Assembly (NCBI GenBank): GCA_019750335.1
Contig: JAIEOQ010000003.1
Coordinates: forward strand, 310,001 to 374,000
DNA: 64,000 nucleotides
DNA from: Candidatus Obscuribacterales bacterium
GTDB taxonomy: Bacteria; Cyanobacteriota; Vampirovibrionia; Obscuribacterales; Obscuribacteraceae
Reading direction: 5' to 3'
In this document: positions 31,491-48,437 of the stretch, piece by piece
Layout: each line of letters begins with the position of its first letter
Position numbering within the stretch: position 1 is the first letter of the stretch
Translations under genes and position numbers: made by a program
Notes under the pieces: generated by a model
Databases searched by the model: none
What the model was told of the DNA's origin: nothing
What the model saw: only the letters and a program-made list of their open reading frames with translations

Positions 31491-32081
31491 ATGTCTCTAC
31501 GTCTTAAATGGGAAACCATCTCCAGCGAGCTGGTTGCTGACTGCAAAGTCTTTTCAGTCAACCGCAATCTCTCTTTTGTGCCTGGTGACGACGGGAATTT
31601 AGGTACCCATGATTTTTATGTAGTTCATCCTCATCACTGGGTGAATGTCATTGCTATTACTGCCGATCACGAAGTTATTTTGGTCCGCCAGTTTCGTCAT
31701 GGTATTGCCGGTTTGACTCTGGAAATTCCTGGCGGCATGGTTGATCCCGAAGATCCTAGCCCCCTTGAGGCTGCTTCACGTGAACTTTTGGAAGAGACTG
31801 GCTATGCGGCTTCCGAGCTGATTCATATCGGGCGCAATCATCCAAATCCGGCAATGCAAAGCAATCATTGCGATACATTTTTAGCTTTGAATGTGCAAAA
31901 GATTCAAAATCCTTCTTTTGATACTACCGAATATATTGAACTGACTTTAGTACCTTTGTCTCAAATAAGCAGTTTGATCTTAAGCGGCAAAATTACTCAT
32001 GCTTTGGTTATTGCTGCTTTTCATTATTTGCAGCTGTATGAGAGCGTTAAGTCAGCGCTTATTTCTCAACCTGGAAAGTAA
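31491..32081 (+). CDS. Nudix hydrolase, ADP-ribose pyrophosphatase-like
   Basis: Cleaves ADP-ribose or a similar nucleoside diphosphate derivative. The Nudix box reads GGMVDPEDPSPLEAASRELLEETGY, with the catalytic REL-EE intact but a one- or two-residue insertion before it. VILVRQFRHGIAGLTLEIPGG upstream and TEYIELTLVPLSQI downstream fit the ADPRase subgroup. 196 residues. Its 3' end overlaps the convergent DUF4384 gene by 23 bases. Confidence 0.88.
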   Translation: MSLRLKWETISSELVADCKVFSVNRNLSFVPGDDGNLGTHDFYVVHPHHWVNVIAITADHEVILVRQFRHGIAGLTLEIPGGMVDPEDPSPLEAASRELLEETGYAASELIHIGRNHPNPAMQSNHCDTFLALNVQKIQNPSFDTTEYIELTLVPLSQISSLILSGKITHALVIAAFHYLQLYESVKSALISQPGK

Positions 32082-32907
32082 GCTCTACTTTGTTGGCTGA
32101 AGGCGCAATGTTAGTCATAGCAGATGTAGATTGATAATTCTTTTTCGGTACAACTTTTACTTCGCGTGAAAAGAACGATTTAGCGTTATTCACAAGCTCG
32201 CGATATTTTTCCGGTGTCATTTCGGCAGCGCGAAAAGGAGTGCCGGGTACTTGGCTTAAAGCTACTTCCAGCGGCGCTTCTGTGCCTTGGGGATAGGCAT
32301 AAACAAAAATCTTTTCTTTGCCGCCTTTACCTGAAATTTGATAATCAAAAGGACTTTCATTGCCGCCGATATGAACGTTCTCGCCAGCTTTTAGAAAACC
32401 GGATTGTTGATAGTCGTTAGGAAAAATCTGGATCAAAGTGCCTGTGGAATCATAATTAAATACAACGATATTACAATCAGTGTTTGCCGATACATTGATC
32501 GTCATTTTTTCGCCAACTTTATAAACTGGCATTCCACCTTTGCGATCAAGTGTGGCAATTACTGCCGGCATTCCATGAGCGGTAACCACGCTGTGGGATG
32601 CTGGAATAACTGGAGGCGGAACCGGAGAATGTTGTGTTGGTGCGCTTGCCGGTTGTGCTTTGGTCAATATAACCTTGCTTTTGTTTTTAGCAACTTTAAG
32701 CTGTATTTTGGCTTTTGGCGGTACTTTAATTGCTGCGGCTTGAATGCCTGGCACTGCCTGAGGCGGAATTATATTAGTGAAAGAAGCACCCCGTTCTTGA
32801 CCGCCTATTTTATTCGCTTCGGTTTCATTGGCCATGCTCTCCGGGCTTAATAGAGCCAAAAAACAGGCTGCGGCGCCGCAAGTAACATAAAAGCTAAAAC
32901 CGTTCAT
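32059..32907 (-). CDS. Exported DUF4384-domain protein
   Basis: Signal peptide (VTCGAAACFLALLSPESMA), then a Lys/Pro/Ala-rich linker (about 55-115), then a DUF4384 domain (PVYKVGEKMTINVSANTDCN, VVFNYDSTGTLIQIFPNDYQQS, FLKAGENVHIGG). The domain is a beta-sandwich often attached to kinases and caspase-like proteases; its ligand is unknown. The next gene upstream carries the same domain, so the two are probably paralogous modules of one pathway, spaced 51 bases apart. Confidence 0.85.
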   Translation of the reverse strand: MNGFSFYVTCGAAACFLALLSPESMANETEANKIGGQERGASFTNIIPPQAVPGIQAAAIKVPPKAKIQLKVAKNKSKVILTKAQPASAPTQHSPVPPPVIPASHSVVTAHGMPAVIATLDRKGGMPVYKVGEKMTINVSANTDCNIVVFNYDSTGTLIQIFPNDYQQSGFLKAGENVHIGGNESPFDYQISGKGGKEKIFVYAYPQGTEAPLEVALSQVPGTPFRAAEMTPEKYRELVNNAKSFFSREVKVVPKKNYQSTSAMTNIAPSANKVELTFQVEK

Positions 32908-32958
32908 ATTAAAATCCTCAGTTTTGATTGCTATTGGTCTACGGGCTGCTAAAAAAAA

Positions 32959-34221
32959 TTAGGTGGAGCTGCGCGGTGAATCGAAAATGGCATGTAGAAT
33001 CGTCCCTTTCGCTTGCTCCTCAATAGTCTCCAGACGTTTGAGAAAAGTTTTGCCTTTAATCAATAAAGGTTTTCCTTCGCGATCGCCGGCCGGCCAATCT
33101 TCATTTGTCAGCATTGTGTCAGCAATCTCTTTGCCTTGAGCTGAGTTACCGTCAATAGCGATTAAATGCCATTGATCCGGGCTTGGGTTAGCTGTTAATT
33201 TGCTGCGTCCAAAATAGTTGATTGTTCTTGATTCGCCGCCTTTTAAGAAAGGCGAAATGCCGAATTGGGGGTAAAGCACAGCAATATTGTCTTGACGGTC
33301 GATTTGCAGAAGAAAAACATAAGTATTTGAGCCTGGAATCAAATTTACTTCAATATCTTCATTGAGCTTATAACCGTGGATTGGTCGATTTAAGCCAAGA
33401 TGTACCGGCATAATTTTAGGTTGGTCGAAAGACCATTTTTTCAGTAAATCTTGCCCGGCAATTTGATACAGAGCAAAAAGAGTCAATAAAAAACTTAAAA
33501 CAAAAACCAGACCAACTTTTGCTAGCAAATTGCTGTTTAGGGCTGCTTTTTGGGTCTCAGCAATACCGAACTCGCGTAAAGCATCTACCCAGAGAGCCAA
33601 ACGAATTGAGGTCGTCGGCAAATTTAAGCCGGGCAAAGTGGCCGTATCACCGCAATGGATAGCAACAATCGCTCTACCGTCCGTGATAGGCGCACCGGAA
33701 TCCCCAGGCGATAAGGGCAAGTCGTGTAATAAATGAAAGTTGTCATGCTTTCTTAAAAGTCCAAGAAATTTGCCGTTTTGAATGAGAGGCTGAATGGCAG
33801 CGCTTAGTTGTCCTAAATGAGCCGGATAACGCATAGTCCAGAGATCTATGCCGCTTTTCAATGCACTTTCATATGAAAAAGGCAGTGGTTGAGCTGAGTT
33901 CTCAGGAGCTTTTAATTCAGCTTCTAATAAAGCTAAATCGAATTTGACCAACTGGTCCGGTTGACGAACAAAAGCCGGATGCAAACGGATTGTTTTGACC
34001 GGATAAAGATTGCCCGATGCTGGAAATTTGAGAAAAAGTGCCTGGGGCTTTGCCGTTTCGACCACATGACCGCAAGTAATCAAACGTCCGGGAGCGGCCA
34101 GCCAGGCTTGGCCCAGTGTCGTTTCTTTATCGCCCTCTTTGCTTATGACGTTGGCAAGAGAGTGATTAAACCTTGCCGGCTGGTCGATTAGGCGTTCATG
34201 AGTTGGCACAAGAGACCTCAT
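32959..34221 (-). CDS. Trypsin-like serine protease with membrane helix and DUF4384-like C-terminus
   Basis: The catalytic triad is visible: His in RLITCGHVVE, Asp in KFDLALLEAE, Ser in SPGDSGAPI. The protease part (about residues 20-215) has no signal peptide and precedes a single helix (LLAKVGLVFVLSFLLTLFALY), after which a DUF4384-like domain follows (YKLNEDIEVNLIPGSNTYVFLLQ, IAVLYPQFGISPFLKGGES). By the positive-inside rule and the absence of a leader, the protease would face the cytoplasm and the DUF4384-like domain the periplasm. ATG 34221 or 34236. Confidence 0.82.
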   Translation of the reverse strand: MRSLVPTHERLIDQPARFNHSLANVISKEGDKETTLGQAWLAAPGRLITCGHVVETAKPQALFLKFPASGNLYPVKTIRLHPAFVRQPDQLVKFDLALLEAELKAPENSAQPLPFSYESALKSGIDLWTMRYPAHLGQLSAAIQPLIQNGKFLGLLRKHDNFHLLHDLPLSPGDSGAPITDGRAIVAIHCGDTATLPGLNLPTTSIRLALWVDALREFGIAETQKAALNSNLLAKVGLVFVLSFLLTLFALYQIAGQDLLKKWSFDQPKIMPVHLGLNRPIHGYKLNEDIEVNLIPGSNTYVFLLQIDRQDNIAVLYPQFGISPFLKGGESRTINYFGRSKLTANPSPDQWHLIAIDGNSAQGKEIADTMLTNEDWPAGDREGKPLLIKGKTFLKRLETIEEQAKGTILHAIFDSPRSST

Positions 34222-34315
34222 TGCATCGGCAAACAACTATTTTCGCACAGGCCGGTTTGATGCTGTAATATTTTCTCTGGATCCTTTAAGCCGGTGCTTG
34301 TTTCAAGAGAGAGCG

Positions 34316-35755
34316 ATGCTTTCAAGTTCAACCGAACTGCGCCAAATTTTTGATTTTGCTCCGGAATGGGAGCAACTGTTAAAAAATTGGGATGGCAAAG
34401 AAAGTACGGCTGCTTGGGACTTTTTGGCTAAAGTCGGCGCTAAAGCAATCTATATGAAAGCTTTGAGTTTAGACAAACAACAAAGCGCTTTTGTACGGCT
34501 GTTGCGGGATCAATATTATTTACCGATGTTCGGCAAAATGCTTTCGGCAAATCAAAATTTGCGTCGTTTTCTCGGACAAAGATATGTAGCTTATGACGAA
34601 CAAAAAAAACATAGTCTCTCTATGTCTGTTGAGTTGGCGGCAAAGCTTGAAGGCGTGCTTTTAAAACAGCTAAGCAACAAAGACGAAAATGGCTTTAAAG
34701 TGCTTTTAGCGCCTTATATTCAGCGTAGCGTACATAACGCTGTGATCGATTACATTCGTTTAGAAACAACCTGGGAACGCTCGACTTTGCAGGATGTTTA
34801 TCTTGATCCCGAGCAAGACGATCCACGTACTAACATAGCTGACGATCAAGCTTATACTCCAGAAACTTTAGTTGCCAGCGCCGAGCAAGTGACTCAGCTC
34901 AATCAATTGCGCCAAGAACTGACAGCTATGTTGAAAGAGCCTAATCTGGCTCAAGAGCCGCTTATTGTGCTTGACTGTATGTTCGGTTTAGGTTTAACGC
35001 CAAGCTCGGTTGTCGGACAAGAGATGACTATGCGTGAGTGTTGCGAGGCTTTAGGTATTGAAGCTGAAACTATGCAACGACGCATCGCTCGCTGCCAGGT
35101 TCTTTTGGATAAGGGCCTGGATATGGTGCGTCAACGTGTTTATAAAAAACTGCCTGGTGTAGCCGAGTGTTGGCGCAAAGGTTTAAATATCAATACAGCA
35201 TCTCGTCGAGAACTTGGCCAATTGCTTGGTTTCACCGAAGGTGAAGTCGAGCGTTTGGTGAAAGGACGCCAATTCAATACAGCTCAAGAGCTGGTTGATA
35301 AAGGTGTGATTAAAGAACCGCGCTTATCTGAAGTGACAGATAGAGGGGCAGTAGCTGTTTTTGTACCGGTTGAGCTAAATTCAGCTTGCGCCAGAGATCT
35401 TGTCGACATACTTGGTTTGTCTAAAGATTTAGCGCAAAAAATTGTTGCGGAAAGACCATTTCTTAGTTTGGCTGATTTAAGCGCAAAAGGCTTGATTGAG
35501 GGCAAAGAGCTAGACAAACTTACTGAGCGTGGCGCTGCACTTAAAATAAGTAATGCGCAAAACAAACGTTTTGATTTGAATAAAGCAACTCTTGAGGAGA
35601 TTCAAGCTTGCGGGCTCGATCAAACAAATGCGACATTTCTTGTTAAGTTCAGGCCTTTTGTCACTTGGTCCGAGCTTGAAGAACTGCTTGGCCCCGAATG
35701 TACCTTTTGGAATGTTTTACGCCAGAAATTTTTTCTCGGTATCGGCTCCTCCTAA
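34316..35755 (+). CDS. Sigma-like protein fused to three helix-hairpin-helix repeats
   Basis: Residues about 130-275 look like divergent sigma-70 regions: YIQRSVHNAVIDYIRLETTW resembles region 2, and MTMRECCEALGIEAETMQRRIARCQ a region-4 helix-turn-helix. Residues about 290-455 hold three ComEA-type DNA-binding repeats: LNINTASRRELGQLLGF, VELNSACARDLVDILGL, FDLNKATLEEIQACGL. The fusion is not one I recognise. ATG 34316 follows an AGAGAG stretch; track start 34298 is TTG. Could be a nucleoid-associated or transcription protein. The sigma assignment is by eye and moderate. Confidence 0.6.
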   Translation: MLSSSTELRQIFDFAPEWEQLLKNWDGKESTAAWDFLAKVGAKAIYMKALSLDKQQSAFVRLLRDQYYLPMFGKMLSANQNLRRFLGQRYVAYDEQKKHSLSMSVELAAKLEGVLLKQLSNKDENGFKVLLAPYIQRSVHNAVIDYIRLETTWERSTLQDVYLDPEQDDPRTNIADDQAYTPETLVASAEQVTQLNQLRQELTAMLKEPNLAQEPLIVLDCMFGLGLTPSSVVGQEMTMRECCEALGIEAETMQRRIARCQVLLDKGLDMVRQRVYKKLPGVAECWRKGLNINTASRRELGQLLGFTEGEVERLVKGRQFNTAQELVDKGVIKEPRLSEVTDRGAVAVFVPVELNSACARDLVDILGLSKDLAQKIVAERPFLSLADLSAKGLIEGKELDKLTERGAALKISNAQNKRFDLNKATLEEIQACGLDQTNATFLVKFRPFVTWSELEELLGPECTFWNVLRQKFFLGIGSS

Positions 35756-35808
35756 TTTTTTCCCTATCCCTGTTGCTCATTTATGGAAATTGCTTTCGAG
35801 AAAAAAAT

Positions 35809-37020
35809 ATGAACTCTGTTGAAATTACCCCCCAAATGGTTAAGCTGGCCCAAGAACGGTGCCGCTTATCTGGCAGCGATTTGCGTCAAGAGTTAGCTCG
35901 TCAAGTTGTACAAACTGCTGTGCTTAATCTAGATCCGGAAAATGATCTACTGATTGACGAACAAAATGCTTTTAGTAATGACGATCTGCTGGTCGCTGCT
36001 TTTAACGTAAATGACTTGCTGATAAACGACTTGCGTTTTGACATACGTTTTAAAGGCGAAGACGATCGTTGTGCTTTTCCGCGCCATTTATTATTTGGAC
36101 AATATTTAGCTTGCGGCACTTTAGTTGTTCGTTTTAACGGTGATGCCACAGCTGATGTAATTGCTTATCTGCCTTTCAAAGATTGGCAGTTGCAAGATAA
36201 GCATGAGACAAACGAAGAGCGTTTATTATTGCGTCCACGCACGGATAGTCTGGATTTAGACCAAACAATCAAAGCTGCTCTTGCTGATTATAAGCCTGTT
36301 GCTTATCCGGTTTTACCGGTTGTCGGCGCCAAAGAAATAACTGATTTTATTGCTGCTCCGGCTGATTTATCTCTTGCCGATAAACGCACTCTTGTGGAAG
36401 CTGTGCTTACACATCCTCAGTCTTGGCCTTTGCTTAAAGATATTCTTGCTACTTATTCCAAAGCTGCTTTTAAGAAAACTCTTGTTCATGCGGCCAAATG
36501 GAACCAAACTTTGGAAAAACTGGTGCAACTTGTCGAGCCTAAATTTGCCAATCTTTCTAAAGATGATATTCGCAATATTATTGCCGGCACCGGTGAAGTC
36601 TTGGGCAGCCAAGCTCAATCACCTAAGTTTCGTCAGGAATTTTTGCGTCGTTTGACCGAAGTGCAATTAGCAAAAAAACTTAAAGGTGAACAGCTTGTCA
36701 ATGCGACCAAAGCAGCTGAGCAGATAATTGCCGGCAGTTCAGCAAGCGTTACTTTGCAATCTACGGTTAAAAGCAAAACTGTTTTTGATATCGCTATGCT
36801 GGTTAAAAAACAAAGACAAAAATTCCAGCATTTTGTTAGCGCCAGCGCCGAAGAGCTCTCTGCTGCTTTCAGCAAGGCTGCTTTGCAACCGGTTTATGCC
36901 ACCCATAGTCAAGAGAGTAATGAGGGGCTAGAGGCTATTAATGAAGCTCTTGTTTTAATCGACGCTTGCGAAATTGCAACTGAGATAAAAGAGCTTGAGG
37001 CTGATCTTGCACAGCTTTGA
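35809..37020 (+). CDS. Hypothetical protein, 403 residues, possibly DUF1822-like
   Basis: The true start is probably ATG 35809 (MNSVEITPQMVKLAQ), as the track start at 35698 lies inside the sigma-like gene. The N-terminal half has strands such as NDLLINDLRFDIRFKGEDDR and FGQYLACGTLVVRFNGDATA; the C-terminal half is helical. No signal or membrane helix. A faint resemblance to cyanobacterial DUF1822 proteins is possible but I would not rely on it. It follows the sigma-like gene by 53 bases and may be its partner. Confidence 0.65.
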   Translation: MNSVEITPQMVKLAQERCRLSGSDLRQELARQVVQTAVLNLDPENDLLIDEQNAFSNDDLLVAAFNVNDLLINDLRFDIRFKGEDDRCAFPRHLLFGQYLACGTLVVRFNGDATADVIAYLPFKDWQLQDKHETNEERLLLRPRTDSLDLDQTIKAALADYKPVAYPVLPVVGAKEITDFIAAPADLSLADKRTLVEAVLTHPQSWPLLKDILATYSKAAFKKTLVHAAKWNQTLEKLVQLVEPKFANLSKDDIRNIIAGTGEVLGSQAQSPKFRQEFLRRLTEVQLAKKLKGEQLVNATKAAEQIIAGSSASVTLQSTVKSKTVFDIAMLVKKQRQKFQHFVSASAEELSAAFSKAALQPVYATHSQESNEGLEAINEALVLIDACEIATEIKELEADLAQL

Positions 37021-37065
37021 GCAACATCAAGTAAACTCTAAGCAGTCGGTAATTGGAAAGCTCAA

Positions 37066-37671
37066 TTGGATTGTCCAGCTTGCGGTCAAAAAAATGATCA
37101 AGGAATGCAGTTCTGCATTTTTTGCGGTCAAGCTTTATCCGCAGAGGCTGCGCCAGCAGCTAGCGGTTTTTGCTGTCAATCATGCGGTAAAAGCGATCCA
37201 CTAAACGGAAAATATTGTGTTTTTTGTGGCGGGAATATGGCAAACTCGGCTAAACCTGCTGTTGCCATATCTCAATCCTTGCCGGCAGCTAAAGTGACTT
37301 CAAGCGGAAAAGACTTTCTCTTTCTGGCACTGGCACTTATTCTAGGAGCTGGTGCTGCCTTTTTATTATTTCAAACTGCTCTTGTTTCACATTTACAAAA
37401 GAGCTTTGTTCAGCCTTTATGGACTAAAGACGGACTTGTGCTTTATGCTTCCGCGCCGGAAGCGAATCTGTTTATCAAAAGCTTGGATCAAAAAACTTTT
37501 CTCTGCGGCAAAACTGGCAAAGATGGCGCAATCGCGATTAATAATCTCGCGCCTGGCAGTTATAACTTGCAGCTTTCCGGCAAGAATCATCAATATTTGA
37601 GCGAAGATTTTACTGTCGGGCTTGGACAGCCGACAATTCTCGGTTATCCCCAGAGGCTTGAGCTTGAATGA
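37066..37671 (+). CDS. Double zinc-ribbon membrane protein with PEGA-like domain
   Basis: TTG start with GGAAAG about five bases upstream. Two zinc ribbons open the protein (CPACGQKN, FCIFCGQAL; CQSCGKSD, YCVFCGGNM), then a Ser/Lys linker, one membrane helix (FLFLALALILGAGAAFLLF) and a C-terminal beta domain of about 75 residues (LVLYASAPEANLFIKSLDQK, IAINNLAPGSYNLQLSGKNH) like PEGA or carboxypeptidase-regulatory domains. Overlaps the downstream kinase gene by four bases (ATGA), so the two are coupled and may act together. Confidence 0.8.
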   Translation: MDCPACGQKNDQGMQFCIFCGQALSAEAAPAASGFCCQSCGKSDPLNGKYCVFCGGNMANSAKPAVAISQSLPAAKVTSSGKDFLFLALALILGAGAAFLLFQTALVSHLQKSFVQPLWTKDGLVLYASAPEANLFIKSLDQKTFLCGKTGKDGAIAINNLAPGSYNLQLSGKNHQYLSEDFTVGLGQPTILGYPQRLELE

Positions 37672-38750
37672 CAGTGGATAAGCTTTTATCTTGTCCTTTA
37701 TGTGGTCTGAATTATCCGGCAAGCGCAAAGTTTTGCGGACAAGATGGCACTTTGTTGTTACCGGCTGTTGGGCTTGAAAATACTAAATCCTGCCCGAAAT
37801 GCAAAAAAGACTATCCTGATTATGTAAAACATTGTCCAGTGGATGGTATTGCACTTGATGCGCCACAAGTTGAATATGTTTCTTTTGAGACTGAAATAAT
37901 CGGCAAAACTGTAGCCGGTAAATACAAAATTGAAAGTCTGCTTGGCGAAGGTGGCATGGCTCAAGTATTTAAAGCCAGACATTTAGGGCTTGATCGTCCG
38001 GTTGTAATCAAGCTTATGCATCGCAATCTTCCTTCCCAAGAAACAGCTTTGAAAAGGTTTGAGCAAGAATGCAAAGTGACGGCAAAAATCGATCATCCAA
38101 ATGTGGTTTCGGTTTTTGATGTCGGTACTTTTGAAGCTAAGCGTCCATATTTGGTAATGGAATTTATTCAAGGTGAATCTTTACGTGACCTAATGGAACG
38201 TGAAAGGTCGCCAGAGATGCAGAATGTTCTTCGGACCATGAGTCAGATTTGTGCCGGACTGCAAGCTGCCCATGCCGAAGGCATAATTCATCGAGATCTC
38301 AAGCCTGAAAATATTATGCTCCGCCAAGATCAGGACAGACCTGATTGGGTGAAGATTGTCGATTTCGGTATTGCTCACTTAAAACAAGGCGGACAACGTC
38401 TGACTAAAACCGGCATCGCCATTGGCACAGTCGACTATATGTCGCCGGAGTATCTTGGCGATAAACCAATAGATCATCGCTCGGACATTTATGCTTTAGG
38501 TGTAATCTTTTTTGAGTTAATTGCCGGGCGCTGTCCTTTTGCTGCTGAAACAAGCGAAGCGATAATGGCTAAGCACTTATTCAGTGAAGCACCGCCGCTT
38601 TCTATGTATCGCCCGGATTTAAAAACCGGATCTATTTTTGACTTAATCGCCAAACGTGCCTTAGAAAAAGTGCCGGAAAAACGTTATCAATCTATTGAAG
38701 CAATGCAACGTGATATCAATGAAGCATTTAAAGAGTGTGATCGCCGCTGA
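37668..38750 (+). CDS. Ser/Thr protein kinase with N-terminal zinc ribbons
   Basis: Residues 1-60 hold two CxxC pairs (CPLCGLNYP, CPKCKKDYPDY), like the ribbon in the preceding gene. The Hanks kinase domain follows: GEGGMAQVFKA, VVIKLMH, HRDLKPENIML, KIVDFGIAHL, GTVDYMSPEYL, HRSDIYALGVIFFEL. All catalytic residues are intact. No membrane helix or extracellular domain; the ribbon partner may anchor it by zinc or protein contact. 360 residues. Its last codons overlap the glycosyltransferase gene. Confidence 0.93.
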   Translation: MTVDKLLSCPLCGLNYPASAKFCGQDGTLLLPAVGLENTKSCPKCKKDYPDYVKHCPVDGIALDAPQVEYVSFETEIIGKTVAGKYKIESLLGEGGMAQVFKARHLGLDRPVVIKLMHRNLPSQETALKRFEQECKVTAKIDHPNVVSVFDVGTFEAKRPYLVMEFIQGESLRDLMERERSPEMQNVLRTMSQICAGLQAAHAEGIIHRDLKPENIMLRQDQDRPDWVKIVDFGIAHLKQGGQRLTKTGIAIGTVDYMSPEYLGDKPIDHRSDIYALGVIFFELIAGRCPFAAETSEAIMAKHLFSEAPPLSMYRPDLKTGSIFDLIAKRALEKVPEKRYQSIEAMQRDINEAFKECDRR

Positions 38751-41064
38751 GCGCAAAGCCGTTTATTATGCCGGAGCATGCTTTGCTCTGGCTTTTCTCT
38801 GTTTTTTGCCGTCTTTAAAATGTTTTTTCTTTGCCGATGATTTTCTTTGTTTGGAATATTTAGGCAAAATTTTTAATGGTCAGCCGCAGCTTTTTTTACT
38901 GCGTTTGTTCTCGCCCTGGCAAGATCATAACGTACAGCTTTTATACAGACCGCTAGGTGACGTCAGTCTGGCTTTGGATTATTTGTTTTGGCGCGACAAT
39001 GCTTTCGGTTATCACTTAACCAATGTTTTATTGCATGCCGCAACAAGCGTTTTAGTCTTTTTTCTTTGCCGCAAACTTTTCAAAGACTTGGCAGACAAAA
39101 ACTTACCGTCTTTTTTAGCGGCTGCTTTATTTGCTGCTTATCCGCTGCACATTGAGAATGTGGTTTGGATAGTCGGACGTTTGGATATTTTATGCACTTT
39201 CTTTTTGTTAGCTTCTTTTCTTGCTTTTATTTGCTTTCTTGAATCAAGCAAAACGATCTATTTATTCTCTGGTTTGTTGGGCTTTTGGTTGGCACTTTTA
39301 AGCAAAGAGATGGCTCTAATCCTGCCTTTTCTTCTTGTTGCTTATTTGCTGCTTATAGCCGGCAAATTTCAACTTAAGCCGCTCCTGCCTTTTATGGCAG
39401 TTGCGCTTATCTATATGTTTTTGCGTTGGAGTGTTCTTGGTACATTACTTGGTGGCTATACAGGCATTTTAGGTGAATTGTACAAAGAGACTTTCTTAGG
39501 ACGTTTTTTGGAATTTAAGAAGTACTTTGCCTTGTTCTATCCGATCAATCGTCAGATTATTCCTGCTGAAGGGTTAGGCGATCAGTTATTGCACGCTTTA
39601 TATATTCTTTGCGGTCTTTTTCTTTTAGCTAGATCAGTCATTAATCCATGGTCGACTTTTACAAGCAAACGTTTGTTGTTTGCTCTTGTCTGGATTTTTT
39701 GTACGATGCTGCCGGCGTTGCAAGTGCTTGATTTAACCGGTAATTTGAGCAGCGCTCGTATTTTTTATCTGGCAAGTATCGGTATGTCCATGTTAATCGT
39801 CTCTGCTCTTTATCCATTTGCTTCAACTAAGTTCTTTATGAGAACTACGGCTTGCACTTTGCTGTCCTGCTTGATCCTGCTTTTTTCTTTGGTCACTCTT
39901 CGTTGCCAGGAGCCGTGGTTGCATGTTTCGACCATGATCAAAAATTTGCAAAGCACTCTAATTGAGCAGGTACAAAAGTTGCCTGCCGATAAAAAACTTT
40001 TGCTTTTAAATTTAGCGACTACTTATAAAGGCGTGCATATTTTTTATGAATTTGCTGAGCTGAAAACACTGATATCTCAGCCTTTCTTTGCTGAAAATTA
40101 TGGCAACAAATTGGCTACGGTTTCTTGGTTCTCTACTGATAACAGCTTGAATTTGACTGCTTTTGAAAATGAGCATTACAACCATGAAATAAGACGTATA
40201 CATTGGATTGAAAAGCCTGAATTGCAAAAGATTTCTACACTTCAATCAAAGAGTGAAGTTGCTGCAATGCCTAAATGCTCCTGGAAAAAAATTGCTTCCA
40301 AAAACAACAACCATGATTATCTTGTTTCTCTCAAGCGTCAGATAGAGCCAAGCTCAATTGCTTTTGTTGAAATTGAGCTTGCTTCAAGCAGCAAAGATTT
40401 TGCTCAATTGCCTCAAGATCTTGTTTTTGAATATGGCGATGCAAAAGGTAACTGGAAAACTATCGAAAGACGGATTCAAAAAGAGTATCAAGATAAGCGC
40501 AAAGTCTATGTTTTGCCCTTGAGCGAACATTTAGACTGGAACTTAAGCGGCAAATGCCGCCCTTTTGTTTTGCGTCTTGCCGAAGACGAGCATAAGCCCT
40601 TTGAACTCGTATCGGTAAAGCTTTACGGGCACGATTGCTATCCTAAGTTAACTGCTGCAGCGACAACAATTGATGTTGGCGATGACGGAATCTGTCGGCT
40701 TAGAAACAATGTATCCGGTGATTTGTTTTATGACGCTCGGCGAGTACCCGGAGCCGCCAACGTTATTTTGGAAATTTCCAAACCACGTTATCTGTTTGGC
40801 TTTTTCAGTAATTCTGCGCGCAACACACAAGATGTTCGCTATGCCGGAAGCCGCTTTTTGCTCTCCGGTAATCATGGACGTTTTGCTTTTAGCAGAGCGC
40901 TCTTTCCGCAATCGGCTCGTTATCAGATACATGTATGTGCTGCTGACAGCAAAGGTCAATCTTTAGGACGATTCTCCGACCCGCTGACTTTTGAAATAGT
41001 CAGCGCTCAAGGTGTTTGGATCGGCGGCTGGCTTAACCGCTTATTTATGTCGCCTAAAAACTGA
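38719..41064 (+). CDS. GT-C glycosyltransferase, TMTC-like, with large C-terminal domain
   Basis: Polytopic N-terminal half (about 12 helices) with the GT-C acidic motif FADDFLCLEYLG and YPLHIENVVWIVGRLDILCT, a hallmark of TMTC/DUF1736-type O-mannosyltransferases using polyprenyl-phosphate sugars. About residues 430-770 are a soluble, strand-rich domain (IAFVEIELASSSKDFAQLPQ, NVILEISKPRYLFGFFSN) likely in the periplasm. Overlaps the kinase 3' end by 32 bases; GTG 38734 is an alternative start. Target unknown. Confidence 0.8.
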   Translation: MKHLKSVIAAERKAVYYAGACFALAFLCFLPSLKCFFFADDFLCLEYLGKIFNGQPQLFLLRLFSPWQDHNVQLLYRPLGDVSLALDYLFWRDNAFGYHLTNVLLHAATSVLVFFLCRKLFKDLADKNLPSFLAAALFAAYPLHIENVVWIVGRLDILCTFFLLASFLAFICFLESSKTIYLFSGLLGFWLALLSKEMALILPFLLVAYLLLIAGKFQLKPLLPFMAVALIYMFLRWSVLGTLLGGYTGILGELYKETFLGRFLEFKKYFALFYPINRQIIPAEGLGDQLLHALYILCGLFLLARSVINPWSTFTSKRLLFALVWIFCTMLPALQVLDLTGNLSSARIFYLASIGMSMLIVSALYPFASTKFFMRTTACTLLSCLILLFSLVTLRCQEPWLHVSTMIKNLQSTLIEQVQKLPADKKLLLLNLATTYKGVHIFYEFAELKTLISQPFFAENYGNKLATVSWFSTDNSLNLTAFENEHYNHEIRRIHWIEKPELQKISTLQSKSEVAAMPKCSWKKIASKNNNHDYLVSLKRQIEPSSIAFVEIELASSSKDFAQLPQDLVFEYGDAKGNWKTIERRIQKEYQDKRKVYVLPLSEHLDWNLSGKCRPFVLRLAEDEHKPFELVSVKLYGHDCYPKLTAAATTIDVGDDGICRLRNNVSGDLFYDARRVPGAANVILEISKPRYLFGFFSNSARNTQDVRYAGSRFLLSGNHGRFAFSRALFPQSARYQIHVCAADSKGQSLGRFSDPLTFEIVSAQGVWIGGWLNRLFMSPKN

Positions 41065-41068
41065 CAGC

Positions 41069-42796
41069 TTATCGTGAAGGAGCCTTTACTGCTTCATTGC
41101 CTGAAGACGGTAGCTGCATATTAACCTTTCCGGTTACCGCAGCTTCTTTTGTCGTTGTCGCTGTTGCTGCCGCCGGTGCTTTTGCCGCTGCTGGAGGAGG
41201 AGAAGGAGGTGTTGGTGCTGGCGGAGCCGGAGGTGTTGGTGGTGGCGGAGCCGGAGGTGCTGGCGGAGCCGGAGGTGTTGGTGGTGTGCTGGAATTTTGA
41301 ATTCTTGTATTTAGAGCATCGATCTGCCCAGGGTCAATGACATTGGCTTCCATGCTGGCTAATATGGCAAGAACAGCGCTGCCTTTAGTTAGTTGGCCGG
41401 TTAGTAGACTCTGTGACCAATATAGAATCTCGGATGGTGAAGGACTTCTACCGGCGAGATTCTGATATACCGAAGCAACAAAGTTGGCAGTACTACTACT
41501 TGTCTCGTTGGGCGCTAGAGAATCAACGAGAGATTTCACTGCGGCGTTTGTGTTGTATATATTACTGAGACTAGCTGCATTAGTAGCAAGACCAGTTTGA
41601 TCAGCAGCAGCTAGTGCTGCTGTCATATTGGCTAAAGCTGTCGCATCCGGTGCCGTACCGTAGATGCCGTAGTAGAGCTGAGAAAGAACCGGTTGATAGG
41701 GCACCTGTGCCGGTGTTAATGGTGGTGTCATTGGAGCCGGGGCAGGCGGCGGTGGTGGAGTTGGCGCTGTAGGAGGAGCAGGTGGCGGCGGCGGTGCCGG
41801 AGGAGGAGATGGCGGCGCTGGAGGTGGAGGAGGAGGCGGCGGCGGTGTCGCGCTTCTCTCCAATTCGCTACCGGAGCTGGATTCAGATGATCCAGGTGTG
41901 TAGCCCCAAGTACCGTTCACTTGGTTAAGTACGGCAGCCATTTTTGATACGTCAGCGAGGATACGCTTATCCTTGCTGTCCGAATCATTTTGACTGAGAT
42001 CGCCAAGCAAATCGCTGTTTTTCAGCGCGCTTTCTACTGAAATTTGGCTGATAGCCATATTTTTGCCTTCAATAAGTTCCGGCTGACGACGGGTCAGACC
42101 GTCGCTGGGAGCAAGTTCTGATTGAGTTAAAGGATGGTCGGCGACAACAAACTCATAACCTGGTTTTAAGGAAACGGTTGTCGGTGGTTCTCCCGGCAAA
42201 GAAATCAAACATGTTTGCCCGAGACCATCTAGATTTGTTACTCGTAAAACACCATCTTTATAAGTAATCAGAACATCTGAATTGGAGCAGACAGCAACCT
42301 GACCAAGAGGAGTATCAATCAAGCCTGTTTCTGAAGGTTTTTTGACACTGACAAGCAAAGTACCGCTTGTTAGTTTTGCGGCATAAGGCGATGTTTTTTC
42401 ATAAGTTGTATTGTCGCCTTCTTTGATTACCAGGAAGTCAGTCGATCCCTTTAGATCTTCTGATTTCGGAAAACCGTTTGAAGGTATAGTAACCAGTCCC
42501 TGTGATGGGCTTGGACCAGGGGTGTTTACCATATGAAGCGGATCGGTAGTTTGGGTTACGTCCGTCGGTACGACAATCGGCGGACTGAAAGGTCCCGAGG
42601 GCGGTGGCGGCGGTGGAATAAAAGGAGGCGGCGGCGGTGGTGTGTACACCGGTGGAGGCGGTGGTGGAACAATTATGTACTGCCCGTTTGCCGTAAGCTG
42701 CGGGTAAAGCAAGCCCACACCAATCAGTGAGAGCGCGCACATACTCATCAGTATGCCTGTATATGTTTTACCGTCTGCCGAATGTCCTGGTTGCAT
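41069..42796 (-). CDS. FecR/DUF4214 protein with polyproline linkers
   Basis: One hydrophobic segment near the N-terminus (SMCALSLIGVGLLYP) may be a signal anchor. Three Pro-rich runs (about 40-75, 325-365, 510-550) separate a FecR-like beta domain (about 120-230, TLLVSVKKPSETGLIDTPLG, EFVVADHPL) from a DUF4214-like domain (about 375-475, FVASVYQNLAGRSPSPSEIL). FecR domains often carry regulators of sigma factors; DUF4214 occurs in surface proteins. The Gly-rich + strand ORFs at 41097 and 41149 are shadows. Divergent from the CHAT gene. Confidence 0.82.
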   Translation of the reverse strand: MQPGHSADGKTYTGILMSMCALSLIGVGLLYPQLTANGQYIIVPPPPPPVYTPPPPPPFIPPPPPPSGPFSPPIVVPTDVTQTTDPLHMVNTPGPSPSQGLVTIPSNGFPKSEDLKGSTDFLVIKEGDNTTYEKTSPYAAKLTSGTLLVSVKKPSETGLIDTPLGQVAVCSNSDVLITYKDGVLRVTNLDGLGQTCLISLPGEPPTTVSLKPGYEFVVADHPLTQSELAPSDGLTRRQPELIEGKNMAISQISVESALKNSDLLGDLSQNDSDSKDKRILADVSKMAAVLNQVNGTWGYTPGSSESSSGSELERSATPPPPPPPPPAPPSPPPAPPPPPAPPTAPTPPPPPAPAPMTPPLTPAQVPYQPVLSQLYYGIYGTAPDATALANMTAALAAADQTGLATNAASLSNIYNTNAAVKSLVDSLAPNETSSSTANFVASVYQNLAGRSPSPSEILYWSQSLLTGQLTKGSAVLAILASMEANVIDPGQIDALNTRIQNSSTPPTPPAPPAPPAPPPPTPPAPPAPTPPSPPPAAAKAPAAATATTTKEAAVTGKVNMQLPSSGNEAVKAPSR

Positions 42797-42831
42797 TTAG
42801 ATTCCGCCCATGCCTGAGAACAAAATATCCA

Positions 42832-42957
42832 CTCATATGGTAAGCCTTTTAGGAGGATTTTGATGTCTTTTTGAGTCATATTGAAGGACATTTTCATAAA
42901 GTCCAGCATTTGCTTGTTGACAAATTATTTGCCCGCTAAATTGTCCTACCATATGAG
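42832..42957. promoter_or_regulatory. 11-bp inverted pair between the FecR and CHAT genes
   Basis: CTCATATGGTA (42832-42842) and its exact reverse complement TACCATATGAG (42947-42957) lie 36-46 bases before the FecR gene start and 18-28 bases before the CHAT gene start. The near-symmetric placing in a 178-base divergent region suggests paired operators, but no protein binding is known. A TTGACA at 42917 has no good -10 partner. Confidence 0.5.
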
Positions 42958-42974
42958 CGTTTCCATTATTTTGA

Positions 42975-45900
42975 GTGCTTATCTTGAAAAGTTCTTTTCT
43001 GCTTGCCGGCTTATTAACTCTCTCCTTGCAACTGCTTGCTTTTGCTCAATTAGAGAATCTGCGCCCGCCGTTTTCCACCAATGCTGAAATTCGCAGACAA
43101 GAGGAAGAGCTTGAACGTAAGCTGAAAAAGTCCACACCAGTCGAGCAGTCTGATGCTTTATACGAAACAGGCAAAGCGGCTTTTGAAGGCAAAGAATATG
43201 ACCGTGCTCTTTACTACATGAAAGAGTCTCTTGCTCTGGATGCCAAACTTAAACGTCCGGAATATGAAGTGAAAACTCGTGTTGCCATGGCGATTATTTA
43301 TGCTCTTAAGCAAGACAACAAAGCTGCCCTCGATCAATATAAAGAAGCCTTGAACACGGCTGAAGCAAACAAACTCGATGATTTCGTTCAGATAATCACT
43401 GACAGTTTAGGCACACTGGCTTTACGCCTTTCTTTGTTAGATGAAGCCGAGTCCTATTACAAAAAAGCTTATGCACTGGGAGTTTTACATAAAAACAAAG
43501 ATACACAAATAAACTCGCTTATCAATCAAGCCACTGTAATGCGTAAACGCAAAAAAATTGCTGAAGCAAAAGAGCTCCTCGGACAAGCTGTAGTTATAGC
43601 CGGTAAAGGAAAAAATAGTGAGAATGCCGGTGCCGTTCTTTTAAATCTGGCTCGTGTTCAACATGATCTCGGTGAGTTTTCCGAATGCGAGGATACTTAT
43701 ACAAAAGCAGTTGCGGCCTTAAAAGCGGAAGGCAATCATGAGCAGGCAGCGTCTGCCAGCTGGGGATTGGCTGAAACTTTATATGACAGGCATAGGCTCT
43801 CTCAAGCTAAAGCTGCTTTTTTGCAAGCAAAAGCGCTTTTAGATGTTAATGCACCGCTTGGGTTGTTTGGACCGATTCTGCTTGGCTTAGGCGCTATTGA
43901 AGCTGATCTCGGTAATTTCGATTCGGCAGTTGAGTATCATAAACAAGCACTTGTTCTTGCGGTTGCTGCAAAAAACAAGATTGCTGAAATGCAATGTATT
44001 TTGCAATTGGGTTCCGATTATCTTTTAAGAGGCAATCCGGAAACCGGTCTGGAACAGCTGCTTTCCGGCGAAAGCTTACTTGAGCAAAAACCGGCTAATG
44101 CGGCAAGTCGCGCTACTTTGTTCATGGCGATTGGACGTTGCTATAAAGTACTCGGACAGTTTGAGCAAGCGCAAAAGTACTATGATTCGGCTTTGAAGCT
44201 TTTTCAGGACGCAGGGGATCAAGTCGGTCAGGCTCTGGCTTTGAATAGTATGGCTGTGCTCAGTCTTGATAATCAAAACCAAGCTTTGTTTGAACGTTAT
44301 TACAAACAAGCAAAAGAGATTTATGCCTCTCTTAATAACAAGCGCGATCTGGCTATTCTCGATTATAACTATGCCCAGTTTCTGCTCACACAAAAACGTT
44401 TTAAGGAGGCAATTGAGCTCTATAACCAAGCGCTTGGACGCTTGAAAGAGACCGAGGATGTTTATTTGCAAAGCATGGTTTTGTCCGGTCTTGGGCTGGC
44501 GGAGCTTTTAAGCGAGAATACGCAAGCTGCCATTGCTGCTTACACTCAGTCTTTGAAAATTGCCGAACAATCAGGTTCGATTGAAGCGCAATGGGATGCC
44601 AATTTAGGCTTGGGTAAATGTTATAAAAAGCAAGGACAGAACGATCCGGCTCTTTTGCATTTGAAAAAAGCTGTAGATCTGGTTGAAGCTGAACGAGCGC
44701 AACTGACTCGTGATTCTTTTAAGACCTACAACTTGGATTTACGCAACGATTGTTTCTCCGAGCTTATTGATTTGTATGCCAAACTAAATCGTCCTTATGA
44801 AGCGCTTGAAATAGCGGAAAAAGGACGAGCGCGCGCTTTTCTTGATATGCTCGCCAGCCGCAAATCAGGTGGTCAGATAATCGAGACTTTTCAGCCTGTT
44901 TCTAACAACTCTTCGAATATCACTAAATCAACTCCGGTAGAAAGCGGAACACGTGCCGTCGGCGTGATCCGCAAAAACGGTCAGATCAATGTGGCAACGT
45001 CCATTAGCCCGGTAAACGTTAATGCGCCTGATATTGAAGAGATCAAAAATCTGGTTCGCAAAAGCAACTCTTATGTAGTTGAGTATTATTTGCTGCCGGA
45101 TAAAGTGATGGTTTGGCTTATTGATCCTCAAGCCAATATTCGTCTGTTGCCACCGATTATGCTGAGCAAACAGCAAGTCGGTGAAAAAGTCACTCTTGCT
45201 TATGAGGCTGTGATTCATGCTTATAAACAAGGTGAAAATCTAGGGGCTGTAAATCAAAGACGTTACGAACATCTACAAGAGCTTTATCGCTTGTTCATTC
45301 AGCCTTGTGCCGAATATTTGCCTAAAGATACAAAATCCGTTGTTACGATTGTGCCTCACGGACCGATGTTCTTGATTCCTTTTGCTGCTCTGGTCGATGC
45401 CGACGGCAGTTTTTTGGTGGAAAAACATACATTGTCTTATATACCGGCTATCGGTGTGTTTCGGACAACACAAAAATTAGCTGATTCGGCTTCAAGTACA
45501 AAAAAATCTCTGCTTGCTTTCGGCAATCCGATTACAAAAGCAATTTCGTTTTTGGGCGCCTTACCTTATGCTGAAAAAGAAGTGAAAGAGATAGCCCAAA
45601 TATTTGGTCCGCAAAACTCGCTTGTAAAAATCGGTCAGGAAGCCGATAAAAAAACATTTTGCGATCTCTCTTCTCAATATAGCGATATTCATTTAGCTAC
45701 TCATGGCTTAATCGACGAAGAGAATCCGATGCAATCGTCTTTAGTTTTGGCCCCTACGGCTTATGACGACGGACTGTTGAGCGTAAAAGACATACTTTCA
45801 CTAAAAGAGTTGAAGGCACGATTAGTTGCCTTGTCCGCTTGCCAGACCGGGCGCGGCAAAATAACCGGTGACGGGGTTGTCGGTCTTTCGCGGGCTTTTA

Positions 45901-46142
45901 TTATCGCCGGTGCGCCGTCGGTTTTAGTCAGCCAATGGAATGTGGATGATATCGTCACTGAGTATCAAATGAAGCACTTCTATAAGACTTATCTTTCAGG
46001 CAGCAGTAAATGTCATTCTTTGCGCGAAGCGCAACTGGCGACAATTCAATTTTTGGAAGGTGGCGGCACACGCAAAACCGGCGGTGCAAGAGCAAACCCG
46101 AAATATTGGGGCGCTTTCCAGCTTATTGGTGAAGCTCAATAA
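42975..46142 (+). CDS. TPR-CHAT protease-like protein
   Basis: Caspase-like CHAT domain preceded by about a dozen tetratricopeptide repeats. Signal peptide (FLLAGLLTLSLQLLAFA). TPR arrays span about residues 55-580 (YDRALYYMKESLALDAKLK, AIAAYTQSLKIAEQSGSIEA). The CHAT domain occupies about residues 680-1055. Its catalytic dyad is His910 in HLATHGLIDEENP and Cys956 in LSACQTGRGK, both intact. GTG 42975 or TTG 42984 begins the leader. Secreted CHAT proteins of this form are frequent in Cyanobacteria; the substrate is unknown. Divergent from the FecR gene. Confidence 0.9.
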   Translation: MLILKSSFLLAGLLTLSLQLLAFAQLENLRPPFSTNAEIRRQEEELERKLKKSTPVEQSDALYETGKAAFEGKEYDRALYYMKESLALDAKLKRPEYEVKTRVAMAIIYALKQDNKAALDQYKEALNTAEANKLDDFVQIITDSLGTLALRLSLLDEAESYYKKAYALGVLHKNKDTQINSLINQATVMRKRKKIAEAKELLGQAVVIAGKGKNSENAGAVLLNLARVQHDLGEFSECEDTYTKAVAALKAEGNHEQAASASWGLAETLYDRHRLSQAKAAFLQAKALLDVNAPLGLFGPILLGLGAIEADLGNFDSAVEYHKQALVLAVAAKNKIAEMQCILQLGSDYLLRGNPETGLEQLLSGESLLEQKPANAASRATLFMAIGRCYKVLGQFEQAQKYYDSALKLFQDAGDQVGQALALNSMAVLSLDNQNQALFERYYKQAKEIYASLNNKRDLAILDYNYAQFLLTQKRFKEAIELYNQALGRLKETEDVYLQSMVLSGLGLAELLSENTQAAIAAYTQSLKIAEQSGSIEAQWDANLGLGKCYKKQGQNDPALLHLKKAVDLVEAERAQLTRDSFKTYNLDLRNDCFSELIDLYAKLNRPYEALEIAEKGRARAFLDMLASRKSGGQIIETFQPVSNNSSNITKSTPVESGTRAVGVIRKNGQINVATSISPVNVNAPDIEEIKNLVRKSNSYVVEYYLLPDKVMVWLIDPQANIRLLPPIMLSKQQVGEKVTLAYEAVIHAYKQGENLGAVNQRRYEHLQELYRLFIQPCAEYLPKDTKSVVTIVPHGPMFLIPFAALVDADGSFLVEKHTLSYIPAIGVFRTTQKLADSASSTKKSLLAFGNPITKAISFLGALPYAEKEVKEIAQIFGPQNSLVKIGQEADKKTFCDLSSQYSDIHLATHGLIDEENPMQSSLVLAPTAYDDGLLSVKDILSLKELKARLVALSACQTGRGKITGDGVVGLSRAFIIAGAPSVLVSQWNVDDIVTEYQMKHFYKTYLSGSSKCHSLREAQLATIQFLEGGGTRKTGGARANPKYWGAFQLIGEAQ

Positions 46143-46144
46143 GT

Positions 46145-47281
46145 TTAAGCGCGTCTGTTGAGCTTCAAGGGGAAGATCGGCGGCTTGGCGAACTCCAGTC
46201 TCAGCCCGCCGAAAACACGGACGTTGACGCCGGCAAAGCCGGTTGCTTGGTTGGCGCCGATATTGAAAATCGGCTCTGTCCGGAAGAATGCCACCATCGG
46301 CAGTACCGGGTGGATTTTGCGGGCGGCTTCCAGAGTTACAACAAAAACCTGGTTGTTCGGTCCGAAGCGCAAAGTGCGGTTGCCGAAGTTAGTGATGAAA
46401 GTGTTGTCGGCAAGAAAAGTCCATTTAGGCGTGCGCTTAACGGCGCCGAATGAATAAAATTGATCGCCTTCTTGAAACTTGCCAAGCACGTTGCGGAATC
46501 TGATCTGTCCTAAAACCCCGCCATATATCGCCGTGTTTCTACCCACCCGACGTACAACTTGAATGGAGGGCAGCAAGTCATTTAAAGCTTGCGAGCGACT
46601 CAGCAGTAGCTCCCTGGCAAAGAAGCTTGCCGTAACCGTGGTTTTCGGTCCGACATAAAGGTCGCGGTCTATACGAAAACCGATTGAATGAATATTGCGG
46701 CTTAAAAAATGCGAATTGCGCGTATATTGGTCGCGTAAGAAGAAATAGTTAGACGAGACTCTTGTTCTTGGATTGAGAGCATAGCCGACAGTGATATTCG
46801 GCAGTACTCTGTAAATCATATCGGCGCGGTTGCGCGTCAGCGTTTGCAGAACGTTTGTTTCTATGCGCAGGCTATTTTCGCAAGTTCCAGTCACAAAAAG
46901 CTTACTTGGCAGTTTGTAAAAAATGCCGGTTTTGAAGCCCTCTATACGGCTAATGGCAGTTGTTCTTTCCGGTAGTCGTACCGGCGCTAAATCAACTGTC
47001 GACCCGCTTGAATTTAAGGCGGCCGCTTGGGCGATAAATTTGGATTCTTGGTCCGGCTCGTTATCGTCAGCTGTTTCTTGTGAACTAGCCGAATCAATAC
47101 TTGTGCGCAGCGGACTTACGGCATCAATGCTTGTATTGCTTGCCGATATATTTATCGGACTAAGTTCCGGTCCGGCAAGAGCATTATTTGAAGCTCCGGC
47201 TGCATAAAGCAAAGATATTGCCAGGGCAACTTGCGCCGGTTTAGCGGCAAAATAGTTTGCAAATATGCTGGAGGGATTCAA
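46145..47281 (-). CDS. Putative outer-membrane beta-barrel protein
   Basis: TTG start. Signal peptide (VALAISLLYAAGASNNALA), a Ser/Thr-rich variable region, and from about residue 115 many alternating strands (RTRVSSNYFFLRDQYTRNSH, TTVTASFFARELLLSRSQAL, NTAIYGGVLGQIRFR) with aromatic girdle residues, ending in Phe-rich strands. This fits an outer-membrane barrel of about 12-14 strands. No specific family recognised. Convergent with and nearly touching the CHAT gene. Confidence 0.7.
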   Translation of the reverse strand: MNPSSIFANYFAAKPAQVALAISLLYAAGASNNALAGPELSPINISASNTSIDAVSPLRTSIDSASSQETADDNEPDQESKFIAQAAALNSSGSTVDLAPVRLPERTTAISRIEGFKTGIFYKLPSKLFVTGTCENSLRIETNVLQTLTRNRADMIYRVLPNITVGYALNPRTRVSSNYFFLRDQYTRNSHFLSRNIHSIGFRIDRDLYVGPKTTVTASFFARELLLSRSQALNDLLPSIQVVRRVGRNTAIYGGVLGQIRFRNVLGKFQEGDQFYSFGAVKRTPKWTFLADNTFITNFGNRTLRFGPNNQVFVVTLEAARKIHPVLPMVAFFRTEPIFNIGANQATGFAGVNVRVFGGLRLEFAKPPIFPLKLNRRA

Positions 47282-47406
47282 TGGTAATCACTGCAATAAA
47301 ACTGATCTTGAAAATTATAACTTGGGGTGTCAACTATTGATCTCATCTTGGCAATGCGCAAGATGATAATATGGCAATGTGCTTGCCACCACAACTGGTG
47401 ATAGAT

Positions 47407-48416: not shown

Positions 48417-48437
48417 AGCTAAGGCTTCTTAGTTTTT
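48417..48437. terminator. Terminator-like hairpin after the adenosyltransferase gene
   Basis: AGCTAAG-GCTT-CTTAGTT gives a five- to seven-bp stem (one G-U pair) followed by Ts on the + strand. It overlaps the stop codon of the convergent ctpA gene. Weak stem. Confidence 0.4.

Follow-up and report, generated by a model that had tools for sequence, protein, structure and literature searches.

A co-inherited sigma-like gene, its DUF1822-like neighbour and a trypsin-DUF4384 protease gene in Obscuribacterales: a candidate envelope-coupled sigma switch

In a 64,000-nucleotide stretch of the 4.2-Mb genome of a Candidatus Obscuribacterales bacterium (contig JAIEOQ010000003.1, positions 310,001 to 374,000; G000:C12:310001-374000; hereafter the window), ten open reading frames (ORFs) occupy positions 32059–47281, and a first-pass annotation had taken all of them for one module that senses the envelope or surface glycans. 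The ten proteins are real and lie where that annotation had placed them, but the 15-kb stretch comprises more than one module. Its functional core is a divergent arrangement, D4384-TRYP<->SIG-PART, often accompanied by ZPEGA-KIN, in which a sigma-like protein with a helix-hairpin-helix (HhH) tail (SIG) and its proposed partner (PART) are encoded back to back with a putative membrane trypsin-like protease (TRYP) and a DUF4384 protein (D4384), a zinc-ribbon protein (ZPEGA) and a Ser/Thr kinase (KIN) being the frequent companions. The remaining four genes, here called TMTC-like, FecR-like, CHAT and barrel, lie beyond this core. What stands of the single module is therefore a conserved, non-chance set in which a membrane protease accompanies a sigma-type protein, and not the whole 15 kb. 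Pairing of a sigma gene with a DUF1822 gene is already known, and the locus, from the non-photosynthetic part of the phylum, represents an Obscuribacterales-specific variant of a pair found across Cyanobacteriota.

Linkage was scored at 23 SIG loci taken from relatives that span many genera, with neighbour retention counted only where the contig was sufficiently long (hence denominators of 20 or 19). The gene-neighbourhood analysis that the first-pass annotation had proposed as a check recovers the order D4384< TRYP< SIG> PART> ZPEGA> KIN> across genera: PART is retained near SIG at 20/20 testable loci, TRYP at 19/20, ZPEGA at 16/20, D4384 at 15/20 and KIN at 15/19, and for the genes just upstream of D4384 the figure drops to 6/19, 2/19 and 1/19. 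On the other side, CHAT and barrel are each retained at 10/19 loci, the FecR-like gene at 8/19 and the TMTC-like gene at 4/19, to be compared with a background given by housekeeping-type genes at similar distance (11/19 each for those at 47371 and 47829, 10/19 for that at 48429). Linkage of the core genes is thus above background synteny and that of the four outer genes is not.

In a set of 50 family genomes, SIG, PART and TRYP are inherited together and lost together. One set of 40 genomes contains both of the single-copy genes SIG and PART, and TRYP is found in these 40 plus one 64%-complete genome (G254), which gives p=4e-9 for the co-occurrence of SIG and TRYP; all three are missing from the other nine, including three genomes of 96–98% completeness (G005, G010 and G024). 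The looser partners of this trio are KIN, ZPEGA and D4384, the last being present in 32 of the 50 genomes and never without TRYP. KIN is missing from all ten genomes that lack SIG (p=8e-7), when its orthologues are defined as the strong matches judged orthologous and the matches in G003, G030 and G254 are set aside as paralogues. Genomes are related by descent, so these p-values, and those that follow, are descriptive.

The presence of CHAT (35 of the 50 genomes at E<=1e-60) is independent of that of SIG (p=0.14), as is the presence of barrel (p=0.26), and four SIG-less genomes (G010, G024, G033 and G259) keep both genes. CHAT and barrel are strongly associated with each other (p=7e-12), and in one genome (G008) contig C1 carries KIN, CHAT and barrel as a group, the SIG-PART-TRYP-D4384 set being on C13. 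CHAT and barrel thereby drop out of the module in which they had been included, and are regarded as a separate envelope unit, apart from the SIG core; this conserved pair, both members of which are found in 34 of the 50 genomes, is independent of SIG. That all ten genes nonetheless form one envelope- or glycan-sensing module, with CHAT, FecR-like, TMTC-like and barrel included, would agree with their lying together in the window and in several genera, but the independent scattering of CHAT and barrel, which the first-pass annotation had itself named as the refuting outcome, and the background-level or lower linkage of the outer genes make this very improbable, and the controls for co-occurrence and synteny led to the rejection of a module spanning all 15 kb. 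For sensing of surface glycans no evidence was found.

SIG (34316..35755, plus strand) consists of a core resembling sigma regions 2 and 4 and of a tail with three C-terminal HhH units. Its ORF opens at 34298, and the ATG at 34316 is the most likely start. The tail confirms the HhH half of the fusion proposed earlier, since HHH_3 is matched in 22/22 orthologues; the sigma half is weaker, TIGR02937 being matched in 13/22 orthologues with a best E of 1.5e-6, below the curated cut-off. Positions 49–158 of this model align collinearly with SIG, and the orthologue alignment contains a conserved AYxQRSVHNAVxDYIR segment and helix-turn-helix-like segments. SIG likely functions as a sigma factor. In all three HhH units another residue stands in place of the hairpin's second glycine, which makes it doubtful that the tail binds DNA. 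In the type II secretion protein T2SS-K and in PsbU, the HhH fold serves protein contacts. The AlphaFold model of SIG (pLDDT 80, pTM 0.36) has a tail resembling ComEA with a probability of 0.98 in a Foldseek comparison with solved structures; a sequence-profile search of solved structures returned only HhH proteins for SIG and nothing convincing for PART. Outside the family, the SIG profile gave matches only at the HhH level in 194 genomes of the phylum, and a scan over 84,980 species located 37 loci, the great majority in records titled as Obscuribacterales, Melainabacteria or cyanobacterial metagenome-assembled genomes, with Candidatus Obscuribacter phosphatis among the relatives; the few remaining ones include bins that are probably mislabelled.

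PART (35809..37020, plus strand) most likely starts at the ATG at 35809 and not at 35698, as judged from alignment with its orthologues, and combines an N-terminal DUF1822-like alpha/beta domain with a helical C-terminal domain (AlphaFold pLDDT 85). The protein was noted in the first-pass annotation as an unknown partner, but its DUF1822-like identity was missed; PART matches no Pfam family, and the DUF1822 model PF08852 has no match in the window genome or in any of 23 PART orthologues. Profile comparison with hhalign nevertheless aligns PART and DUF1822 collinearly over 205 columns (E 1.7e-4, score 41), the controls reaching a maximum of 19.7 in 40 column shuffles and 17.8 with a reversed profile. 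A chain of intermediates is provided by proteins of about 900–1300 residues from another family within the class, called f5 here and probably a gut Gastranaerophilales-type family, which are also matched by DUF1822 searches: hhalign links PART to the f5 proteins at E 6.5e-7 and these to DUF1822 at E 4e-11, and the hidden Markov model of PART matches the same region of the f5 proteins with E down to 3e-10. Because of this profile comparison and bridging chain, the N-terminal domain of PART is identified, by sequence comparison, as distantly homologous to DUF1822, although PART lies outside the family as Pfam defines it. We propose PART as a partner of SIG, acting as an anti-sigma factor or as an adaptor.

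DUF1822 is widespread, being found in 39 sampled genomes outside the class of the window genome and in several copies in many of them. In photosynthetic cyanobacteria, a recognised sigma gene immediately precedes, in the same orientation, 28 of the 32 DUF1822 genes examined, and at sampled loci the pair is often followed by genes for CHAT-CHASE2, TPR-CHAT or trypsin proteins. The cyanobacterial parallel drawn in the first-pass annotation is partly borne out in this form, with CHAT or trypsin neighbours, but DUF4384 and FecR were not seen near these pairs. Genes for extracytoplasmic function (ECF) sigma factors and for DUF1822 proteins, the latter described as TPR proteins, have been reported beside EACC2-caspase genes in multicellular cyanobacteria (Kaur et al. 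2021, PMC8195603); no function was assigned to DUF1822 in the literature found. Thus described, the cyanobacterial pairs and the present locus share a sigma-type gene adjoining a DUF1822-domain gene, with peptidase proteins of the CHAT or trypsin type nearby in cyanobacteria. The present locus stands apart by the HhH tail of SIG and its diverged core, by a PART protein that the Pfam model for DUF1822 does not recognise, and by a tightly linked protease that is a trypsin-transmembrane-DUF4384 protein in a single-copy, family-wide set. The EACC2-caspase/CHAT conflict systems are marked by a CHAT or caspase protein that carries EACC2 and a variable region (CHASE2, for example) next to the sigma-DUF1822 pair; here the protease in that place is the trypsin-DUF4384 protein, and the secreted TPR-CHAT protein of the window is not linked to SIG by co-occurrence.

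In f5, all seven scored DUF1822 genes are followed by a gene for a sigma factor of 187–196 residues, and the one that was scanned matches Sigma70_r4 at a score above its cut-off. The DUF1822 proteins checked contain a long acidic linker and one transmembrane (TM) helix, and the C-terminus is weakly TonB_C-like in the one member scanned. These genes form an operon at the f5 loci L140, L142-L146 and L148, and in those checked a gene for a zinc-ribbon-AAA-TPR protein comes next after the sigma gene. This operon resembles the present locus in the adjoining DUF1822-like and sigma genes and in the zinc-ribbon protein next in line, and differs from it in the fusion of DUF1822 to a TM helix and a TonB_C-like end, in its plain ECF factor of 190 residues, in the reversed gene order and in the lack of a trypsin-DUF4384 protein. 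A membrane-anchored DUF1822 protein encoded beside a sigma gene has, by analogy, the layout that would be expected of a membrane anti-sigma factor, and such a layout was not described in the literature found.

The third member of the co-inherited trio, TRYP (32959..34236, minus strand), comprises a trypsin-like domain (Trypsin_2, PF13365, 43.4 bits against a cut-off of 27.6), one TM helix at about residues 233–257 and a C-terminal DUF4384-like domain. The catalytic triad H57/D100/S180 is at least 95% conserved across orthologues, every one of which has a single TM helix between the two domains, and TRYP is likely a membrane protease to judge from these features. Its C-terminus scores 15.2 bits with DUF4384, below the Pfam cut-off, and can be assigned as DUF4384-like by hhalign despite this score (E 1.4e-10, against 0.11 for the reversed control). 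D4384 (32059..32907, minus strand), encoded after TRYP in the same direction, is a clear member of the family (PF14326, 72.2 bits against a cut-off of 27), with an N-terminal hydrophobic stretch in most orthologues. D4384 is presumably exported, and the DUF4384 end of TRYP would therefore lie outside the cell and the protease domain inside. Peptidase and DUF4384 are also joined in one protein in the DUF4384-containing orthocaspases of cyanobacteria (PMC7475262); in TRYP, the peptidase is trypsin-like and a TM helix lies in between.

About 40 bp upstream of SIG lies a conserved extended -10-like site, TGCTGTAATATTT (34261..34273, plus strand). In the window genome and five relatives, the pattern TGSTKTAATATTT is found 36–70 bp upstream of the SIG start used for each genome; as the pattern was derived from these sites, its presence there is given by construction, and only its rarity elsewhere is a result. 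The six genomes hold ten copies in total, six at the SIG promoter and four others, a number equal to that of the reversed control. Autoregulation through this site was considered but not adopted: although the site is almost confined to the promoter of SIG, its sequence agrees with an extended -10 element, and no regulon is inferred from it.

Taken together, the core may constitute an envelope-coupled sigma switch, with PART as the sigma partner and TRYP as the candidate protease, a reading that we favour tentatively and hold at somewhat less than an even chance. An envelope cue would be sensed by the DUF4384 domains; TRYP, once triggered, would cut or displace PART, or act on SIG; PART would bind SIG as an anti-sigma factor or adaptor, by analogy with the membrane-tethered DUF1822 protein beside the ECF gene in f5; and SIG, thus freed or activated, would redirect RNA polymerase, with KIN and ZPEGA as possible modulators or as a phosphorylation input. 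The gene set and the homologies are computed, and we infer every mechanistic arrow, physical contact among the proteins included. In RseA/FecR-type pairs, a membrane anti-sigma factor is encoded together with its sigma factor. The proposed switch has in common with RseA-SigmaE and FecR-FecI that control of a sigma factor is tied to the envelope and may involve proteolysis, and differs from them in that PART is soluble and matches neither the RseA nor the FecR model, and in that the protease is a trypsin-like fusion instead of DegS/RseP. A bolder extension, which we regard as rather unlikely, is that DUF1822-type proteins would be a previously unrecognised family of sigma partners ancestral to Cyanobacteriota, and that the Obscuribacterales would route the pair through a membrane trypsin-DUF4384 protease, a new trypsin-type regulated proteolysis leading to a sigma factor.

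Several observations weigh against such a switch. As regards the identity of SIG, its TIGR02937 score is 28 bits against a cut-off of 42.9, Pfam Sigma70_r2/r4 models give no match, comparisons with cyanobacterial or f5 sigma profiles are not significant (E 0.016–0.13), and Foldseek returns no significant match for SIG or PART, with sigma chains only at E 0.5–4. In addition, the family shows few losses, in about three lineages when good genomes are considered, and the p-values therefore overstate independence; the TRYP-D4384 pair of one genome (G019) is not beside SIG; and the site upstream of SIG fits an ordinary extended -10 promoter (TGn + TTTAAT/TGTAAT). The low sigma scores also suit the idea that SIG, although sigma-derived, is no longer a sigma factor and now binds the nucleoid or other proteins, its HhH tail forming a structural or DNA-processing complex with PART; the strongest resemblances of the tail, to ComEA, T2SS-K and PsbU, and the missing second glycines, which suggest protein rather than DNA binding, fit this as well. 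Such a loss of function is nonetheless improbable, given the strong conservation of the region-2.3/2.4-like and region-4-like motifs and the fact that homologous partners in other groups adjoin clear sigma genes.

A different possibility is that SIG-PART is a housekeeping regulator and TRYP-D4384 a mere divergent neighbour with an unrelated role in envelope quality control. The divergent orientation and the short intergenic region shared in the window would be compatible with this, as would the hundreds of bases or the extra ORF between TRYP and SIG in several genera and their separation in G019; the almost perfect co-loss of TRYP with SIG, in genomes that keep CHAT and barrel, speaks against it and leaves it with little likelihood. 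The locus could also be a counter-invader (conflict) system, a diverged member of the peptidase-centred systems of Kaur et al., in which the sigma/DUF1822 pair would serve transcription and the protease would act as trigger. The company that ECF sigma and DUF1822 genes keep with EACC2-caspase genes (PMC8195603) and, in the sampled cyanobacterial loci, with CHAT-CHASE2, TPR-CHAT or trypsin proteins argues for it. A single copy in a fixed position that evolves slowly across the family is, however, unlike a defence locus, PADLOC returned only generic matches (kinase, TPR, weak RT-protease), and no variable effector domain was seen, so that a conflict system is judged unlikely, and the envelope-coupled switch is the reading retained here.

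Among the companions of the core, ZPEGA (37066..37671, plus strand) is predicted to carry two zinc ribbons, a TM helix and a beta-type, CarboxypepD_reg/PEGA-like domain; DZR is found in 16/16 family members, CarboxypepD_reg in 10/16 and PEGA, weakly, in 3/16. KIN (37668..38750, plus strand) joins a zinc ribbon to a Ser/Thr kinase domain of the PknB type (PF00069, 178.8 bits), in which the HRD and DFG motifs are present. Kinase candidates are very numerous in the large genomes of the family (up to 320 at first look), and several kinase genes are clustered upstream of the SIG locus in G001 and at L052. Outside the core, the TMTC-like gene (38695..41064, plus strand), a variable neighbour, encodes a multi-TM, glycosyltransferase-like protein (TMTC/PMT-like) whose only match, PMT_2, is below cut-off; in G023 (L062:6539-19053), five tandem copies stand beside kinase and FecR-like genes, a local expansion.

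The FecR-like gene (41069..42796, minus strand), also a variable neighbour, encodes a proline-rich secreted protein with a weak FecR-like region and DUF4214 (PF13946, 32.1 bits); FecR itself (PF04773) is matched weakly in 3/11 family members (best E 0.011), and the window copy has no match. This copy lies on the minus strand with a proline-rich/DUF4214 extension, and its relatives are about 300–350 residues long and mostly on the plus strand. Two genomes (G013 and G021) hold a divergent pair of FecR-like genes, and the window may have lost one copy. The CHAT gene (42975..46142, plus strand) encodes a secreted TPR-CHAT protein with a conserved Cys956 (PF12770, 225 bits), and its companion (46145..47281, minus strand) a predicted outer-membrane barrel, a label that is unconfirmed, as the protein matches no Pfam family; six stretches of the window genome match it, several of them paralogous. 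Of the domain labels given at first pass, those for DUF4384, trypsin, kinase, TPR-CHAT, DUF4214 and the HhH tail therefore hold, and those for FecR, PEGA, TMTC and the barrel are weak or unconfirmed.

A DUF1822 domain adjoins sigma genes both in photosynthetic cyanobacteria and in two families of the non-photosynthetic class, once in membrane-anchored form, which leads to a specific and testable proposal, namely that DUF1822 proteins bind and control the neighbouring sigma factor. The Obscuribacterales set also presents, in simple single-copy form, a system that cyanobacteria have in multiple copies and in association with caspase-like peptidases.

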